Origin: Synechococcus sp. BIOS-E4-1
GTDB lineage: Bacteria > Cyanobacteriota > Cyanobacteriia > PCC-6307 > Cyanobiaceae
Assembly (NCBI RefSeq): GCF_014279995.1
Contig: NZ_CP047935.1
Span: 3,183,494-3,247,493, forward strand
Direction: 5' to 3'
Length of the DNA: 64,000 nt
Position 1 is the stretch's first letter; each line of letters starts with the position of its first letter. The notes below the pieces were generated by a model. That model was not told the DNA's origin. It made no database searches and was given only the letters and a program-made list of their open reading frames with translations. Shown piece after piece: positions 12,156-25,194 of the stretch. Position numbers and translations under genes: made by a program.

Positions 12156-12691
12156 TCAAATCAACCTGTTGTTTGAAAGGTTTTGCCTGGAGATGGATGA
12201 GCACGACTTGACCATCCTGCTATTCCCTGAAAGGGCTATGTATGACTTTCAACCAGCTCATCATGGCTTCAGACTCCAGAACCCTCGATCAGCGGCAGTC
12301 GCCGGAATGGCGAAAGGGTCGGCGCTAATGAGTGGCTTCCGCTTAGTCCTCTGCTGCTCGCAAAGAGGCTTCTGAGGCAATCAAGGGAATGACTTTCATT
12401 TGTTTGTCATCACTCGTGAAGATCATCTCTGTGATGATTCCACCATCGCTGAAACAAGCCGAACTCACATCACCCAAAAGTGTGATTGCTCGCACCGTTG
12501 AATCCCCCAACAGGGGTGTCCACTGCTGACCAGAGTCTCAGGCACTCGCGAGATCTGGCATCGCACCAGGCAATCCAGACTCGGCTCAACCTGCGGACCA
12601 TCAATGGACAACCCTGCTCAGCAATTAAGCCACGCACCATTGCGTTGAAGTCGAAACATAATGAATGGCGCGATTAACCACAGATCTCAAC
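12156..12691. other. Intergenic stretch of about 535 bases, no gene recognised
   Basis: Short open frames exist on the plus strand (for example 12194 onward), but their translated composition is not persuasive. No repeat, hairpin terminator or RNA gene was identified. The region precedes the P-loop protein gene and probably contains its promoter. Confidence 0.4.
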
Positions 12692-13288
12692 ATGCGCATC
12701 GCCATCAGTGGATCCCACTCCCTCGGGAAAAGCACCTTGGTCTGGGACTGGGTGAAACGACATCCCCAATACAAACGCGAAGAGGAGCCGTTCCGTGCCC
12801 TCGATGCAGAGATGTATGACATCCGCTTCCGCCAAGAAAGCAACCGCCTTCACAACGGCATACAGATGTATTACAACGCTAGCCGCGTGAATCTCTATTC
12901 ATCAATCAACGACTGTGTGATATTCGATCGCGCACCCGTGGATTACATTGCTTACTCTCAATATACAGCTGACAAAAAAACAACCGATATTGATAATGCA
13001 TTTGTGAACACAATGGTGCCAAGAGTCAGGGAAACTCTGCAGAAGCTTGATCTGGTGGCTTTTGTTCCAATGACTGATCGCTGGCCAGTTGATATGGAGG
13101 ATGACGGCATCAGACCCGTCGATCTTGCTTACAGAGCAGAAGTCGACGCAATCTTTAAACAGATTTACCGCGATGATCGCTTCTCCGTTATGCCAGAAAT
13201 GAACCGGCCCAAGCTGATTGAACTCTGGGGCTCCCGTGAGCAAAGGCTCGATCAACTCCAGCAAGCATCGGCGTCATGCATGCACTGA
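12692..13288 (+). CDS. P-loop NTPase of the AAA_28/NadR-like type
   Basis: A 198-residue protein starting MRIAISGSHSLGKST. Residues 7-15 (GSHSLGKST) are a Walker A loop of the type seen in NadR-like kinases and AAA_28 ATPases. An acidic switch follows at VIFDRAPVDYIAY (about 78-90), resembling the DR-A motif of nucleoside/nucleotide kinases. The start is set at the ATG directly before the beta strand; an upstream in-frame ATG at 12665 would add nine residues. The substrate is unknown and it has no operon partner. A phosphotransfer role is inferred from fold motifs only. Confidence 0.75.
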   Translation: MRIAISGSHSLGKSTLVWDWVKRHPQYKREEEPFRALDAEMYDIRFRQESNRLHNGIQMYYNASRVNLYSSINDCVIFDRAPVDYIAYSQYTADKKTTDIDNAFVNTMVPRVRETLQKLDLVAFVPMTDRWPVDMEDDGIRPVDLAYRAEVDAIFKQIYRDDRFSVMPEMNRPKLIELWGSREQRLDQLQQASASCMH

Positions 13289-14883: not shown

Positions 14884-15117
14884 TCACACAGTCCAACGGG
14901 ACCACTGCTCGGGGACATAGCTGATGAAGGGGCTCATGCGCTGGCCTCTGGAGCGATCAAATCCATGGCGGCTCGCATCACAGGTGCGATAAACCAATTC
15001 CTCGTTTTCAGCGGTTTCCTGAGGTGCCTGCTCGATTAACAGCGTTTTTGCATGGGTGACAGCAGCAATGCCCAGCGTGAGGGAAAGGGTGTAGACGAAG
15101 GTGGACTTGATGAACAT
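14884..15117 (-). CDS. Small secreted hypothetical protein with TTCACCAG-array promoter
   Basis: A 77-residue ORF with a classical signal peptide (positive start MFIKS, hydrophobic core FVYTLSLTLGIAAV, cleavage after THA near residue 23). The mature part is acidic, then basic (ENEELVYRTCDASRHGFDRSR), and ends in aromatics (WSRWTV). There is one cysteine in the mature protein. Its upstream region matches that of the double-glycine peptide gene at 24866, including a small GC hairpin and four TTCACCAG-like boxes. This implies shared regulation. The function is unknown. Confidence 0.6.
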   Translation of the reverse strand: MFIKSTFVYTLSLTLGIAAVTHAKTLLIEQAPQETAENEELVYRTCDASRHGFDRSRGQRMSPFISYVPEQWSRWTV

Positions 15118-15147: not shown

Positions 15148-15243
15148 GCCCCCTCGACTCCTTCAAGATCACAGTCCTTCTGGTGAACCAAGCTGCACAG
15201 CTTTGGTGCACGACCTGAAGATTTCTGGTGAAGGGCTGGTGAA
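15148..15243 (-). promoter_or_regulatory. Regulatory array of TTCACCAG-like boxes upstream of the 15117 gene
   Basis: Read on the plus strand, TGGTG cores start at 15181, 15204, 15226 and 15237, giving spacings of 23, 22 and 11 bases. Three of the four are full CTGGTGAA. The proximal part (15148-15174) is a near-identical 27-base block also found at 24901-24927. Eleven-base-phased direct repeats are the usual form of OmpR/PhoB-type response-regulator sites. A GGGGG/CCCCC hairpin at about 15139-15153 lies between the array and the start codon. Confidence 0.65.
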
Positions 15244-15522
15244 ACCCAGACACCAGGTTTCTCAACGGGTCTTTGGCCGACCAGCCTGATTCACGATTGA
15301 GAGCATCCCCCTCTCCAACGGCCTTGATCAACAAGTGCGATCAAGCTCGCAAGCACAGCTGATCTCCGTGCCTTTTCACTCGAATGCCGTTGACATCTCG
15401 GACCGCTCAACAGGCATCATCCTGTCTCATGGACACAACAAAACTTCCACTGAACAACACTATTGAGTCACCGCAGCATCATTGATTTCAAGGATGCAGC
15501 ATAAGAAGCACGCTGATATTAA

Positions 15523-16218
15523 TCATGACTGATCATCCAGCCTCAGAGCAAAACCGATGCCACGGATTGTCTGAATGATGCGTTCAGGCTTAACGTCTTC
15601 GAGTTTTTTACGCAGGTAACGCACATACACATCGACCACATTCTCGTCTCCAAAGTAATCATCGCCCCAAACATTCTGAATTAACTGAGATCGACTCATC
15701 GCTTGACGCGGGTTACGGATGAAGCATTCCAAAAGGTCAAACTCTCTGACGGTCAGGTTTAAAGGCACCCCTGCGTAATTGCATCGGCGCTCTGGTCCAT
15801 TGAGATGAAGATCTCCAAAGCTGAGCTGATCGGGGCTAACAGCAGCGCTACGCCTCAGTAAGGCCTTAACCCTGGCCAAAACCTCACGGATATTGAATGG
15901 CTTGGCAATAAAGTCGTCTGCACCAGCTTCCAAAGCAGCAACGCGATCGTCCATTTCATCCCGTGCCGTGATCATGATCACGGGCAGGCCATTACCGGTA
16001 TCTCTCAGCCTGCGGCAGACATCAAGCCCAGTGATGATGGGCATATTCCAGTCGAGCAGTGCGATCGCCGGGGCGGACTCCCTGATCTGCGCCAGGGCTT
16101 TAGCACCGTCTTCGCAGACGATGGTTTCAAACCCTTCGGCTTGAAGCTCCATTTCGAGAAGCATGAGAATGTTGGCTTCATCATCAGCGATGAGCACCAC
16201 ATCATTTTTTGCGTCCAT
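15523..16218 (-). CDS. OmpR/PhoB-family response regulator
   Basis: A 231-residue two-domain regulator. The receiver domain (about 5-120) has the acidic pocket D12/D13, phospho-acceptor D56 (LLDWNMP), T84 and K106. The winged-helix effector domain (about 130-228) contains LTVREFDLLECFIRNP and the recognition helix around DENVVDVYVRYLRKKLE. Phosphorylated dimers of this family bind 11-base-phased direct repeats. It is divergent from the PhnD-like lipoprotein and histidine kinase genes, which are its most likely partners. TTCACCAG pairs nearby are candidate targets. Confidence 0.95.
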   Translation of the reverse strand: MDAKNDVVLIADDEANILMLLEMELQAEGFETIVCEDGAKALAQIRESAPAIALLDWNMPIITGLDVCRRLRDTGNGLPVIMITARDEMDDRVAALEAGADDFIAKPFNIREVLARVKALLRRSAAVSPDQLSFGDLHLNGPERRCNYAGVPLNLTVREFDLLECFIRNPRQAMSRSQLIQNVWGDDYFGDENVVDVYVRYLRKKLEDVKPERIIQTIRGIGFALRLDDQS

Positions 16219-16345: not shown

Positions 16346-17314
16346 TTGGGCTTACGGCAAAAACATATAGTTGGCCCAATCATCGCTGGGCTTCTTTTAT
16401 TTGGCTGCGGTCAGGACGGCTCAAGAGTCGCAATTGAGCAACCGAAGTCAAAAGCAAAACGAGTCGATCTACGCATCACAGAAGAGCCTAATTATTCGCA
16501 GGACAAGATGTATGAAAAAATGAAAATATTTACTGAATACCTTCACAGACAAACCGGTCTTAACATCGAATACATCCCCGCAATTAACTATTCCCATGCT
16601 TATGAGCTATTCGCCTCTGGGAAGGTGGATTTGTTTTGGTCTGGATCTTTGAACACCGCAAAGATTTTAAATGCAGACCCAGACGCGAAGCCAATAGCAA
16701 TTGAGGAAAAATCTTTCGCCAATATACTGCTTGTTAATCGTCAAATTTTAGATCAAGTTAAAAGTGGGCTTGATAGCAAGCAGCCACTTCAGGCATTGAA
16801 AGGGAGAAGTGTTGTTTTTGGAAACAGCTCTTCTGGCTCTTCGTTTCTGACACCTCTACTGGAGATGAAATCTCAAGGAGTTACTTTATTGGATTTGAGA
16901 AGCTGTACGCATGAGCAAAAACATGAGCTTCGTGCAATGTTTCTTGGTGACAGTAATGATCAAGACTTTGCATTTGTTCCTGGCACTGTCGACAATCCTC
17001 TGCAGCATGTTCCTCCAGCAGCACAATCAGAAGTTATTGTTGGCTGGGCCAGTGACAAGAAACGGAATAACTATATCCTGGCCTCTTCCAGGCTGTTAAA
17101 GCCGTCAGTTTCGCCAATGGTTATACAAATACAAGAAGCTCTATTGGCGTGGAACAAAGAGTCTCGATCCAATCGAGAACTTTTAAAAGATATCTGGGTC
17201 ACCGGTTTTGAGTTACCGAACAGCAAGGAAGACCTTAAGTCGTTTCAGGAGATGAAGGAATTTGTGAAGACCTTGGGAGCGCGGACACGTTGCACATCGA
17301 ATCAAAAGACCTAA
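16346..17314 (+). CDS. PhnD-family periplasmic oxyanion-binding lipoprotein
   Basis: A 322-residue lipoprotein with lipobox LLFGC (Cys21) and a type 2 binding-protein body: ITEEPNYSQDKMYEKMKIF, then VDLFWSGSLNTAKIL and GRSVVFGNSSSGSSFL, the last being the serine-rich anion-binding loop of PhnD-type proteins. No transporter subunits are adjacent; instead a histidine kinase follows 102 bases downstream and a response regulator is divergent. This is the arrangement of sensory binding proteins such as AioX. The start is TTG, since a stop codon closes the frame just upstream. The region is AT-richer than its surroundings. The ligand is not determinable from sequence. Confidence 0.85.
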   Translation: MGLRQKHIVGPIIAGLLLFGCGQDGSRVAIEQPKSKAKRVDLRITEEPNYSQDKMYEKMKIFTEYLHRQTGLNIEYIPAINYSHAYELFASGKVDLFWSGSLNTAKILNADPDAKPIAIEEKSFANILLVNRQILDQVKSGLDSKQPLQALKGRSVVFGNSSSGSSFLTPLLEMKSQGVTLLDLRSCTHEQKHELRAMFLGDSNDQDFAFVPGTVDNPLQHVPPAAQSEVIVGWASDKKRNNYILASSRLLKPSVSPMVIQIQEALLAWNKESRSNRELLKDIWVTGFELPNSKEDLKSFQEMKEFVKTLGARTRCTSNQKT

Positions 17315-17348: not shown

Positions 17349-17367
17349 TTCACCAGAAATTCACCAG
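17349..17367 (+). promoter_or_regulatory. Tandem TTCACCAG pair upstream of the histidine kinase
   Basis: TTCACCAG occurs at 17349-17356 and again at 17360-17367, exactly 11 bases apart and each followed by AAA. It sits about 50 bases before the kinase GTG, in the same orientation relative to the gene as the arrays at 15148-15243 and 24901-24994. It is a probable response-regulator operator giving autoregulation. Confidence 0.6.
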
Positions 17368-17416
17368 AAAAAACTGCTTCCACTGGCTATCTTTCCGTTA
17401 AAGGGGCATTCTTGTT

Positions 17417-18892
17417 GTGGGGTCATCAGATCTAGATTCATCGCAATCGCTTTCTGGTGACCGTTCATGGTCCATCGCACGCCGCTTTTTTCTTACGTCT
17501 TTTATTCTGATTGTTGCCCAGTCTGGACTCAGCCTGGCAATTTCAGGAAAGCTTTGGAGAGATTTCACCGCTTCACACTTGAATTTTGCCCTTTCCAGGG
17601 AGCTCCTGCGTCCATTAAATCTTGTTGATAACAAATTAGATTCTCTTTCTGCTCAAGAAGCAATGGAATGCTGCACTAGGGAGGATTACGAATATTTTTT
17701 GTCGGATATTGATTTAGCTGATGGCAAGGCGGTCATGATCTCGGGAAGTGCTGGTCTTGTTCCGGGGAAAGGAGCCCAATCGCTTTATAGCCCCGAACGC
17801 CTGCGTGAATTTGCTCACCTGGCAACGACCAGCAAGAACCGCTTTTCGCTGGTTGATTTTCGGGATAAAAACGCCGTCGCTGTGAAGTCTATGAATCTGT
17901 CTGGTGGTCCAGAGACCGGATCACTGATCTATATCAGACCTATCTACAACATGTCATTGTTTAATGCACTGAATAGGGTCAGACTTTTTTCTGAGATTGT
18001 TTTAATGCTTTCTTTGGTCGTTTTACTTGCTATTGCTCTCACCTATATTCTCAAGCCAATTCAGTCATTGCGTTCTCGGATATCCAATATTCAACCAGAC
18101 AACCTTGATACTGCACTGATTTCTTTGGAAGGGCAGCCAGTTGAGCTTCAGCCCATTCTCACTGAGTTCAATCGCATGGTTCAGCGATTAGAAGCTTCTG
18201 CCAAGAATCAAAAGCAATTTGCTTCAACCATATCACATGAATTTAGAACACCACTTACGGTAATCTCCGGATTTATTCAGTCAGTCTTAAATCGCGCCCA
18301 AGACCTGGATTCGCGATATCGCGAGTCTTTATCGATTGCTGACAAAGAAGCTTTTAGACTGAATAGAATGCTAAGCGACTTATTAGATCTTAGCCGTGCA
18401 GACAATCATCAACTCAAGGTCTTGCGTGAACCCTTCGAATGTATTTTGAGCTGTCGCGAAGCACTGCGTCTTGCACAATTTGCCTTTCCGAATAATCCAA
18501 TTAGATTTGATGACAGTGGATTCGAAGACTCTATCTGGGTCATAGGTGACCCAGATTGCCTTGTTAAGTGCCTTGAAAACCTAATTGGAAATGCAGTGAA
18601 GTACTCAGAACCAATGAGCGCGATAGATCTTGTCGTTGATGTCAAGGATCAGTGTGTTTTATTCGCCGTTCAAGACTATGGCCAGGGAATTCCGGAAGAT
18701 CAACAGAAAAGAATCTTTGAGCGCTTCGTGCGTGCAGATGGAGTCGCTCTGCGCCGTGGCGACTCCAGCTCAGGGCTAGGTTTATCGATCGTCAAGATGT
18801 TGATGGAAGGCATGGGCGGCAGTGTGAGTGTGCAATCAGAAATCGGGGTTGGCAGTCGCTTCACTCTTACCTTGCAGCGCTCGTTGAGCTAA
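17417..18892 (+). CDS. Membrane sensor histidine kinase
   Basis: A 491-residue kinase with TM1 about 24-44, a periplasmic domain about 45-190, TM2 about 192-212, a HAMP-like linker (KPIQSLRSRI), HisKA with phospho-acceptor His274 (SHEFRTPL) and a HATPase domain with the N box ENLIGNAVKYSE, G1 DYGQGIP and G2 GLGLSIVKM. The start is GTG. It follows the PhnD-like lipoprotein and probably senses it through the periplasmic domain, then phosphorylates the divergent OmpR-type regulator. A tandem TTCACCAG pair lies in its promoter. Confidence 0.93.
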   Translation: MGSSDLDSSQSLSGDRSWSIARRFFLTSFILIVAQSGLSLAISGKLWRDFTASHLNFALSRELLRPLNLVDNKLDSLSAQEAMECCTREDYEYFLSDIDLADGKAVMISGSAGLVPGKGAQSLYSPERLREFAHLATTSKNRFSLVDFRDKNAVAVKSMNLSGGPETGSLIYIRPIYNMSLFNALNRVRLFSEIVLMLSLVVLLAIALTYILKPIQSLRSRISNIQPDNLDTALISLEGQPVELQPILTEFNRMVQRLEASAKNQKQFASTISHEFRTPLTVISGFIQSVLNRAQDLDSRYRESLSIADKEAFRLNRMLSDLLDLSRADNHQLKVLREPFECILSCREALRLAQFAFPNNPIRFDDSGFEDSIWVIGDPDCLVKCLENLIGNAVKYSEPMSAIDLVVDVKDQCVLFAVQDYGQGIPEDQQKRIFERFVRADGVALRRGDSSSGLGLSIVKMLMEGMGGSVSVQSEIGVGSRFTLTLQRSLS

Positions 18893-23145: not shown

Positions 23146-23379
23146 CTACCTTGGTATCTCCCAAAAGGGGCACAGAGCCACAACCACACTGTTGCCCCCA
23201 GCCACGTCCTCCAGCTCCTCTTCACTGAGCTTACTGATCCTATCAGCAGTGAATTCGTGACCATGTTCTTTAGCGATAGCCACAACATCCTCAAGCGACT
23301 TAGCTGCTTTGAGTTTCTCCTGAAGATTGGAATCGTCTTTGACTTTGGCGAGGAATGCCTAGAGTTGTTCTAGGGACAT
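23146..23379 (-). pseudogene. Nif11-leader RiPP precursor with in-frame stop
   Basis: The frame reads MSLEQL, then TAG at codon 7, then AFLAKVKDDSNLQEKLKAAK and onward to LSEEELEDVAGG, followed by a 16-residue core NSVVVALCPFWEIPR-like tail. This is a textbook Nif11 leader peptide ending in a double glycine, as in cyanobacterial RiPP precursors. The TAG is one base from AAG, GAG or CAG, so it is a simple nonsense mutation. The core has a single Cys and no Ser/Thr-rich lanthipeptide pattern. No modifying enzyme is present nearby. It is probably inactive, unless there is stop readthrough or a downstream start. Confidence 0.8.
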
Positions 23380-24170: not shown

Positions 24171-24226
24171 TTGAGAGGGTCAGCTCACGCGGAAGCCGGT
24201 GACACCGAGGCTCCAGTGCAGCAAAA
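24171..24226. repeat. Copy of sequence from downstream of tRNA-Val
   Basis: About 56 bases containing TTGAGAGGG, GGAAGCCGGTGAC, AGGCTCCAG and GCAGCAAAA match 25015-25071 in the same orientation with scattered differences. The latter lies just past the tRNA-Val terminator. This is further evidence that the tRNA-proximal sequence has been duplicated more than once in the island. Confidence 0.7.
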
Positions 24227-24233
24227 TTTGCTA

Positions 24234-24515
24234 TCAGTAAACTTCAGGGCATTCATCTTTGGCACTTTTAATACCCTGCTCAATTGCACTTATATACCGC
24301 TCCATTTCCGGATCTCTTGAATATGATTCAGTGATTGCAGATAAAAAATTTCTTGCATATTCTTTATCAATTTTGCCCTCCTTCGCCAAACCGCATAAAA
24401 TATTTCCTGCGGTATAAGCAACACCATTCCAATAGTAATATTTAGCTTCATTCGATTGTGCTCTAACAGATCCAACCGAAACCAATAAGGCACTTAATAG
24501 AACTAGGATTTTCAT
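24234..24515 (-). CDS. Small secreted hypothetical protein, AT-rich
   Basis: A 93-residue protein with a signal peptide (MKILVLLSALLVSVGSVRAQ, cleavage near residue 20) and a mature helical domain NEAKYYYWNGVAYTAGNILC with two cysteines (Cys40 and a C-terminal Cys near 89) that may pair. Codon use is AT-rich, unlike core genes. It follows the double-glycine peptide gene on the same strand, but a terminator lies between them. The function is unknown. Confidence 0.65.
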   Translation of the reverse strand: MKILVLLSALLVSVGSVRAQSNEAKYYYWNGVAYTAGNILCGLAKEGKIDKEYARNFLSAITESYSRDPEMERYISAIEQGIKSAKDECPEVY

Positions 24516-24619
24516 TTGTTTTCCAGGCTTTTCATTTTAAACAATGTCAACAATAACTGCCCGATTAGCGCGGTCTTTTCAGCTCACCCTGAATCCAGTC
24601 ACGCCAAGGCACTAGGGCA

Positions 24620-24646
24620 ATAAAAAACCCCGCACTTGGCGGGGTT
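24620..24646 (-). terminator. Rho-independent terminator after the double-glycine peptide gene
   Basis: A perfect 8-base-pair stem, AACCCCGC/GCGGGGTT, with a five-base loop and, on the minus strand, a following run of six T. It ends transcription of the 24687-24866 gene. Confidence 0.9.
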
Positions 24647-24686: not shown

Positions 24687-24866
24687 TCATTGCCAGGGAG
24701 CACGACCACCGCCAAACCATTCCAAAAGCGCAATCCCGGGAGATTTCCTCCGGGCGTGTTCATACATGATCTGAGCGACATCTCGCCCGAAATTGCCTCC
24801 TTGAGCTGCTTCGAGTTGATCGTCAGTCAGTTCAATGATTTGGGCTTGTTTCTTGAGTGCAGTCAT
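24687..24866 (-). CDS. Double-glycine leader peptide (bacteriocin/RiPP precursor-like)
   Basis: A 59-residue ORF. The leader MTALKKQAQ IIELTDDQLEAAQGG has the ELxDxQLExxxGG pattern recognised by C39-type export peptidases. Cleavage after GG would release a 35-residue peptide starting NFGRDVAQIMYEHARRK, ending with a Gly/aromatic segment (EWFGGGRAPWQ). There is no Cys in the core, so lanthionine formation is excluded. It has its own terminator and a TTCACCAG regulatory array shared with the secreted-protein gene at 15117. No dedicated transporter or immunity gene is adjacent. The function is inferred from leader form only. Confidence 0.7.
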   Translation of the reverse strand: MTALKKQAQIIELTDDQLEAAQGGNFGRDVAQIMYEHARRKSPGIALLEWFGGGRAPWQ

Positions 24867-24900
24867 GGTTTTGAAGTGAGTGAGTGATGTGTGGGGTGTT

Positions 24901-24994
24901 GCCCCCTCGACTCCTTCAAGATCACAGCCCTACTGGTGAACCCCACTACACAGCTCTGGTGTAGACCCCACGAGATTCTAGTGAGACTCTGGTG
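24901..24994 (-). promoter_or_regulatory. Regulatory array of TTCACCAG-like boxes upstream of the 24866 gene
   Basis: TGGTG-type cores, plus-strand reading, start at 24934, 24957, 24979 (variant TAGTG) and 24990. The spacings of 23, 22 and 11 bases are identical to those of the array at 15181-15237. The 27-base block 24901-24927 is also shared, and a GGGG/CCCC hairpin lies between the array and the start codon. Shared spacing points to one DNA-binding protein controlling both genes. Confidence 0.65.
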
Positions 24995-25014
24995 ATTGGG
25001 TCAGAACACGGTGG

Positions 25015-25071
25015 TTGAGAGGGCTCAGCTGACCAGGAAGCCGGTGACGCCAAGGCTCCAGGGCAGCAAAA
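25015..25071. repeat. Sequence downstream of tRNA-Val, duplicated at 24171-24226
   Basis: This is the partner of the repeat at 24171-24226, in direct orientation. It directly follows the tRNA-Val terminator in the direction of tRNA transcription. Confidence 0.7.
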
Positions 25072-25091: not shown

Positions 25092-25123
25092 AGGATTCGC
25101 TGAGATGCGTTGCGGTGACTGAT

Positions 25124-25194
25124 GGGCGATACGGGGATCGAACCTGTGACAATCTCCTTGTAAGGGAGGTGCTCTACCGCTGAGCTAATCGCCC
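25124..25194 (-). tRNA. tRNA-Val (anticodon UAC)
   Basis: A 71-nucleotide cloverleaf. The acceptor stem is GGGCGAT/ATCGCCC, the D arm GCTC..GAGC, and the anticodon loop CTTACAA with anticodon TAC closed by CTCC/GGAG. The T arm is ACAGG-TTCGATC-CCCGT. The C27-A43 position and one T-stem pair are mismatched. CCA is not encoded. It decodes GUA and, by wobble, GUG and others. It is the intact target of the island whose partial copies lie at 19163 and 19830. Confidence 0.95.

Follow-up and report, generated by a model that had tools for sequence, protein, structure and literature searches.

A double-glycine peptide gene of Synechococcus sp. BIOS-E4-1 that probably belongs to a dispersed regulon of small, mostly export-bound products

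The peptide gene and its relatives

Is the small peptide gene beside tRNA-Val in Synechococcus sp. BIOS-E4-1 a solitary bacteriocin gene, or is it part of a larger set? In the 64-kb stretch of DNA analysed here, referred to below as the window, a first-pass annotation had described a lone, regulated double-glycine (GG) peptide with a dedicated terminator and an upstream repeat array, and with neither an exporter nor an immunity gene. The open reading frame (ORF), the Gly-Gly leader and the Cys-free core of 35 residues are all present at 24687-24866(-), and the 59 aa product consists of the 24 aa leader MTALKKQAQIIELTDDQLEAAQGG followed by the 35 aa core NFGRDVAQIMYEHARRKSPGIALLEWFGGGRAPWQ, which includes no Cys. 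The terminator was also found, as a hairpin (-14 kcal/mol, z -2.6) on the 3' side of the gene, and tRNA-Val (25123-25194(-)) is just upstream. The features of the gene are as follows:

24687..24866 (-), double-glycine precursor peptide, an ORF of 59 aa plus stop that has homologues
24795..24866 (-), 24 aa leader with a Gly-Gly end, common to peptides with other cores in the alignment
24690..24794 (-), 35 aa Cys-free core, with relatives behind two different leader types
24626..24646 (-), intrinsic-terminator-like hairpin 3' of the peptide gene, with 8 pairs and a U tail

When the peptide was compared with curated families, no match was obtained at E<=10 in either NCBIfam or Pfam, bacteriocin models included, and it did not match the Nif11-type leader (TIGR03798/PF07862). 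Four members of its core family (the peptide gene, L002, L009 and L010) were used to compare substitution rates, with L015, which has a frame-shifted core, excluded. Though the pair L001-L002 is weak (dN 0.27 vs dS 0.33), dN was below dS in all six pairs, indicating that the reading frame is probably coding.

A search of the BIOS-E4-1 genome (3,314,220 bases, one contig) with the peptide returned eight hits at E<=10. Three of these have E below 1e-5, namely the query gene, a relative at 1792686 (65%), and a peptide at 1980418 that has a similar leader and another core. Matches to the peptide at E<=0.01 were found in 6/60 genomes, BIOS-E4-1 included, all of the same genus. Removal of four Nif11-leader matches from the 23 loci retrieved left 19 with the peptide's kind of leader. 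Two of these, L018 (early stop) and L022 (EEG in place of GG), have no intact GG leader and were left out of the leader alignment. The first-pass annotation had called for a search for conserved leaders with variable cores, and this is the pattern seen: residues E12, Q17, L18, G23 and G24 of the leader are invariant in all 17 aligned sequences, the peptide gene among them, and the cores differ. The core family of the peptide occurs behind its own leader type and also behind a second one, MTTFNTDYNNTELLDQEL.

The promoter block

Approximately 105 bp upstream of the gene is conserved, with a mean column identity of 86%, at 17 of the 19 loci with this leader type. At the other two, L014 and L017, the gene is preceded by another GG-peptide sequence rather than by a block of its own, and one GG peptide is likewise found behind another in two-peptide bacteriocins. 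The block has been kept before the broken and degenerate peptides L018 (G018:C1:1375062) and L022 (G018:C1:888030), so promoters can outlast their genes. Two copies of the block are in the window:

24902..25006 (-), 105 bp promoter block upstream of the peptide gene, with four TCACCAGA-like repeats
24902..24927 (-), conserved 3' part of this block in the block alignment, CTGTGATCTTGAAGGAGTCGAGGGGG
15149..15253 (-), second copy of the block, with model positions 10-105 matched at 15149-15244

The TCACCAGA-like hexamers are at about 24989-24994, 24978-24983, 24956-24961 and 24933-24938, which places them at +0, +11, +33 and +56 in the block, followed by CTGTGATCTTGAAGGAGTCGAGGGGG. We infer that 24902-24927 represents the core promoter and transcript start. 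The upstream repeat array of the first-pass annotation was borne out by the paired repeat TCACCAGANNNTCACCAGA, which, with up to two mismatches allowed, occurs three times in the 64-kb window against 0.02 expected. Taken together, these findings support the first-pass description insofar as it concerns a double-glycine precursor that has a dedicated terminator and a promoter that looks regulated.

The direct repeats are in the 11-bp register of an OmpR/PhoB-type operator. Across 144 block matches, CACCAG spacings of 56, 11, 45, 33, 22 and 23 predominate by a wide margin, and six consecutive 11-bp units can be seen by eye in G020. The diverged arrays of G020 and Prochlorococcus MIT 0701, those of MIT 0701 being a second block type, retain the repeats while the intervening sequence has changed. 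A scan for the sigma-70 consensus returned one weak site, at 24975-25004 inside the array, which was set aside. Separately, a short GGGG/CCCC hairpin at 24867-24915(-) comes after the block, in what is predicted to be the 5' UTR, and by eye its pairing has apparently been kept in some of the diverged copies.

A sequence-only model built from the block alignment was used to search for further copies. It found 37 matches in the 3.3-Mb genome of BIOS-E4-1 and matches in 15/31 genomes of the genus, both at E<=0.01. In a draw of genomes from the family, searched with stricter filters, 7/251 genomes had a match at E<=1e-5, and these fall in 2/59 genera. An exact block pattern was found in 13 stretches from named species genomes, a set from which records near the source genome may be absent, and all are from Synechococcus (WH7803, UW140, UW105, AG-673-A03 and AG-679-A04) or Prochlorococcus MIT 0701. 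A viral origin for the block was considered and rejected, as a search of IMG/VR for the exact pattern returned nothing. With the same block at 37 places in the genome and related peptides elsewhere in it, the peptide gene cannot be described as lone, and that part of the first-pass annotation fell.

A 50-nt repeat, D1, is present in three copies (24177-24226, 24576-24625 and 25022-25071) that flank the small genes beside tRNA-Val. An 86-nt stretch that includes one of these copies has seven matches in the genome, itself included, some of them just upstream of promoter blocks. The D1 repeats are possible attachment-like sites or sites of recombination between modules.

Genes downstream of the blocks

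We examined 144 block matches from 12 genomes, which are part of the known copies, some of the others lying at contig ends. Those from BIOS-E4-1 were 34 of the 37 matches and a partial match of 28 bits (L075) from a separate scan. In 132/144 cases, an ATG-initiated ORF of 30 aa or more begins 15-85 nt downstream of the block, while one was found at the same distance in the reverse direction in 35/144 and at 28% of random points. Hence, as far as sequence can tell, the behaviour of the block is that of a promoter plus operator and not that of a mobile repeat.

The genes behind the blocks span several unrelated families: some encode short peptides with a GG leader, others peptides with a Nif11 leader, and there are also small proteins whose N-termini look signal-like and some proteins of larger size. 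In BIOS-E4-1, 13 of the 32 block genes scanned match the Nif11 leader model TIGR03798. By our own reading, nine of the others encode short GG-leader peptides, and ten encode mostly small proteins with hydrophobic, signal-like N-termini. One such gene lies behind the second block in the window:

14884..15117 (-), 77 aa small protein with a signal-like N-terminus

When the 133 ORFs downstream of blocks in the 12 genomes were sorted by a crude rule, which placed one 259-aa protein among the GG peptides, there were 53 with a short GG leader, 22 with a Nif11 leader, 31 signal-like, 11 large and 16 others. Two genes behind the diverged array in G020 encode RTX repeat proteins and a third encodes a protein with DUF6554. 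One of the block genes in MIT 0701 is for a subtilase, and most of the others are for GG-leader peptides. The theme common to these genes appears to be export, and the larger proteins that have no known family as yet neither fit nor contradict it.

The window also includes a 45 aa ORF (23146-23283(-)) with a truncated Nif11-type leader that ends in GG and scores 29 bits with TIGR03798, below the cut-off of 32.3. It has no match to the promoter block and looks like the remnant of a RiPP precursor.

A candidate sensor-regulator system in the window

Adjacent to the second block are genes for the components of a signalling system that would be suited to reading the array:

15523..16218 (-), response regulator with a receiver domain and an OmpR/PhoB-type winged helix, the predicted reader of the array
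16346..17314 (+), periplasmic binding protein of the Phosphonate-bd family, the predicted sensor input
17350..17368 (+), exact TCACCAGAAATTCACCAGA between the binding-protein and kinase genes, a predicted feedback site
17417..18892 (+), histidine kinase with HisKA and HATPase_c domains, HAMP being below the cut-off

The receiver and Trans_reg_C domains of the response regulator score 102.3 and 94.8 bits, respectively. Proteins of solved structure related to the binding protein are of the phosphonate type and have low similarity to it, and because its ligand motif looks, by eye, only partly kept, we name no ligand. G024, G011 and G016 each have an exact copy of the repeat pair at the kinase site as well, and the copy in G077 differs at one position. 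The pair passes a strict scan in 5/9 genomes with the same three-gene order, with the binding proteins of three of the nine (G002, G025 and G082) assigned by eye. The pair is degenerate, by eye, in G148. The binding-protein and kinase genes abut in G002, G025 and G082, leaving no room for it.

A block follows the regulator gene in BIOS-E4-1 (G000), G024, G011 and G016. In G018, the kinase gene is about 4 kb from the regulator gene. The 10-12 kb around the regulator gene in G008 and G012 yielded no relative of either the kinase or the binding protein.

Two further genes in the window have look-alikes near components of this kind. An AAA_28 protein is encoded at 12665-13288(+), and by eye similar genes are near the regulator gene in G024, G011 and G016. 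The 93 aa product of 24234-24515(-), next to the peptide gene, has a signal-like N-terminus and a conserved middle that by eye resembles small proteins encoded at L224:3795-4097 (G020) and L226:4847-5149 (G014), which adjoin the kinase gene or a broken regulator gene in those genomes.

Co-occurrence of the regulator and the block

An orthologue of the regulator (68-100% identity) is present in 11/31 genomes of the genus, and a broken piece of one is in G014. At least four blocks were found in 10/11 genomes with the regulator and 0/20 without it (Fisher P = 2.5e-7, with the cut of four set after the counts were known). For any block match, the figures are 10/11 and 5/20 (P = 6e-4), or 10/11 and 3/20 (P = 6e-5) when the weak single matches of G017 and G028 are removed. 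With those two matches still set aside, and among the 24 genomes that are at least 90% complete, blocks are present in 8/8 with the regulator and 1/16 without it (P = 1.2e-5). As the genomes share ancestry, all of these P values overstate independence. The two also occur together outside the genus, in Prochlorococcus MIT 0701 (G082), which has an orthologue (67% identity) and 21 block matches.

The link is not absolute, as WH7803 (G010) has three blocks and no regulator orthologue. Blocks without an orthologue were also found in G022 (three) and G003 (one), both of which are about 80% complete, and no block accompanies the regulator in G015 (63% complete). The arrays have diverged strongly in G077 and G148, which have regulators that are 87-88% identical. 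G183 and G212, where the regulators are 51-53% identical, also have only diverged arrays. The arrays of these four genomes score weakly (E 1.6e-5 to 0.1), and some may be chance matches. A diverged array is within 1.5 kb of the regulator gene in G212 and within 16 kb of it in G077.

In the stretch that includes the recognition helix, 16-21 of 21 residues are kept in the block-positive genomes vs 12-13 in eight paralogues, and the receiver domains of the more distant regulators are down to 65-73% identity. The recognition helices of G077 and G148 (18/21) are as similar as those in block-rich genomes, and so do not explain the divergence of the arrays in these two genomes.

Exporters and possible exchange of cores

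The first-pass annotation had noted the lack of an exporter and proposed that a C39 ABC exporter be sought. For the window this observation holds, as no C39 exporter was found in the 64 kb. It does not extend to the genome, which encodes three C39-peptidase ABC exporters elsewhere, all scoring over the Pfam cut-off. The C39 genes are clustered with genes for a second long protein and an adaptor-sized protein, and the one of the latter that was tested had no Pfam match. A further protein of these clusters is an outer-membrane efflux protein in the one case tested. Export of the peptide in trans is thus plausible from gene content. As for the stated lack of an immunity gene, no immunity-type match was recognised among the neighbours scanned beside the peptide, one of which, the 93 aa product of 24234-24515(-), has no significant family.

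Comparison of BIOS-E4-1 and G018 revealed one peptide coding sequence that is 99% identical in the two genomes (193/195 identical) and has 3' flanks that share 95-99% identity. The 150 nt on its 5' side are only 83-84% identical, and the regulator orthologues of the two genomes are 73% identical. These values suggest that cores have been exchanged under a resident promoter and leader. From the near-identical coding sequence behind a more diverged 5' region, together with block flavours that follow the genome and a core family found behind two leader types, we would tentatively go further. The promoter-plus-leader module may be a landing site at which laterally acquired cores join a locally tuned operator, giving each strain a private and changing arsenal at dozens of sites under a single environmental sensor. 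We offer this as a possibility, and hold it with rather less than even confidence.

A likely regulon and its alternatives

One unusual promoter is common to some thirty genes at scattered sites, the products of which are small and apparently destined for export. We consider it likely that the peptide belongs to a dispersed regulon, governed by the signalling system in the window, whose products are small and for the most part export-bound. An extracellular ligand would be detected by the periplasmic binding protein, and the kinase would then phosphorylate the OmpR/PhoB-type response regulator. Bound head-to-tail on the repeats, the regulator would activate the promoters, that of its own kinase included. 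One of the C39 exporters would then transport the peptide and cleave it behind Gly-Gly, and outside the cell its core would act on competitors or kin.

The last of these steps is where an alternative has the most weight. The cores could shape the cell surface or biofilm, or act in signalling between cells, rather than be antimicrobial, which concerns the end function only and is compatible with the regulon. The GG-motif proteins EbfG1-4 promote biofilm (PMC4997328), the block genes include those for proteins with signal-like N-termini and, in G020, the two RTX repeat proteins, and no immunity gene was recognised. Against this, the great diversity of the cores suggests competition. Several of the other cores also have hydrophobic segments with spaced glycines that look like those of class II bacteriocins. 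Overall, we regard a surface or signalling role as a serious candidate that falls somewhat short of an even chance.

A second alternative accepts the regulon and its operator and assigns them to a different regulator, either another OmpR-type protein or PhoB itself, with the system in the window linked to the blocks only by ancestry and location. WH7803, G022 and G003, which have blocks and no orthologue, are in keeping with this, and other OmpR-type regulators (about 40-44% identity) are present in most of the 31 genomes. However, none of the 20 genomes of the genus without the orthologue reaches four blocks, the same repeat pair stands before the kinase gene, and MIT 0701 has both regulator and blocks despite belonging to another genus. 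We therefore consider a different regulator unlikely, and favour control by the system in the window.

A MITE/REP-like origin, in which the block would be a short mobile or selfish element that lies near genes by chance, is very improbable. There are many similar copies, some of them clustered, such as seven within about 10 kb of G018, and the similarity among copies is higher inside one genome (83%) than across genomes (77%; 127 full-length blocks from 13 genomes, label permutation P = 0.001). However, the copies have one orientation and a near-fixed distance to the start codon (132/144 forward and 35/144 in reverse), in G020 and MIT 0701 the repeats persist in arrays whose intervening sequence has changed, and IMG/VR has no copy of the exact pattern. 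Equally hard to credit is a class II bacteriocin of the ordinary, solitary kind driven by a private promoter, which would fit the GG leader, the Cys-free core, the terminator and a window without a C39 exporter, but is contradicted on both 'lone' and 'private promoter' by the 37 block locations and the related peptides elsewhere in the genome, and for which no immunity gene was recognised. On the name bacteriocin by itself the evidence weighs neither way, as Nif11-leader peptides and proteins with signal-like N-termini are also in the proposed regulon.

Comparison with known systems

If the regulon is as we propose, the common block and the candidate regulator turn dozens of orphan GG-leader and Nif11-leader peptide genes into one testable regulon, and the block can be used as a finder for secreted-peptide genes that searches by sequence family miss. 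Its parts have counterparts elsewhere. In lactic acid bacteria and streptococci (pln, blp), one two-component system controls several GG-leader genes that have direct-repeat promoters and share a C39 exporter. Those regulons use LytTR-type regulators and a peptide pheromone, whereas the regulator here is of the OmpR/PhoB type and is accompanied by a periplasmic binding protein. The TorT-TorS-TorR system has the same set of components, a periplasmic binding protein, a kinase and an OmpR-type regulator, and direct-repeat operators. It differs in that the binding protein here is of the Phosphonate-bd family and the predicted regulon is one of secreted peptides.

The open-access literature, covered by titles and the starts of abstracts, yielded no description of the block or regulon. 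Passages of PMC10783134, PMC3140520, PMC4997328, PMC4415409 and PMC9723779 likewise describe neither. Hundreds of new putative precursors were reported from cyanobacteria in 2011 (PMC3140520). A prochlorosin gene survey followed in 2023 (PMC10783134); the word 'promoter' does not occur in its main text, and LuxR or REC regulators are mentioned in one sentence of the section consulted. Prochlorosins and other Nif11-leader peptides (N11P) resemble the set described here in their conserved leaders and variable cores (PMC10783134), and 13 of the 32 block genes scanned in BIOS-E4-1 match the Nif11 leader. The peptide at 24687-24866 differs from them in its Cys-free core and in its short leader, which has no Pfam or NCBIfam match.

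The closest cyanobacterial parallel to its export is in S. elongatus PCC 7942, where efficient secretion of the GG-motif proteins EbfG1-4 needs a C39 transporter protein (PMC4997328). The EbfG/PteB system shares with ours small GG-motif proteins, a transporter with a C39 peptidase and regulated expression, with export here being predicted. However, the EbfG proteins are encoded by one four-gene operon (PMC4997328), whereas here some thirty dispersed genes with variable cores share one block and a two-component link. PHO boxes, the operators of PhoB/PhoP, are 11-nt direct repeats with a conserved part of 7 nt, GTTCACC in Streptomyces coelicolor, which resembles the TTCACC of the block (reviewed in PMC4415409). 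In the block, though, the repeats are at +0, +11, +33 and +56 and the targets look like exported peptides. Nor is the regulator in the window a universal PhoB, as its orthologue is in 11/31 genomes of the genus. GG-motif proteins with a C39 transporter are thus already known, as are GG-peptide regulons under one two-component system. What appears to be new is the proposed dispersed export regulon in marine picocyanobacteria, which combines an operator of the OmpR/PhoB type with a sensor linked to a binding protein.
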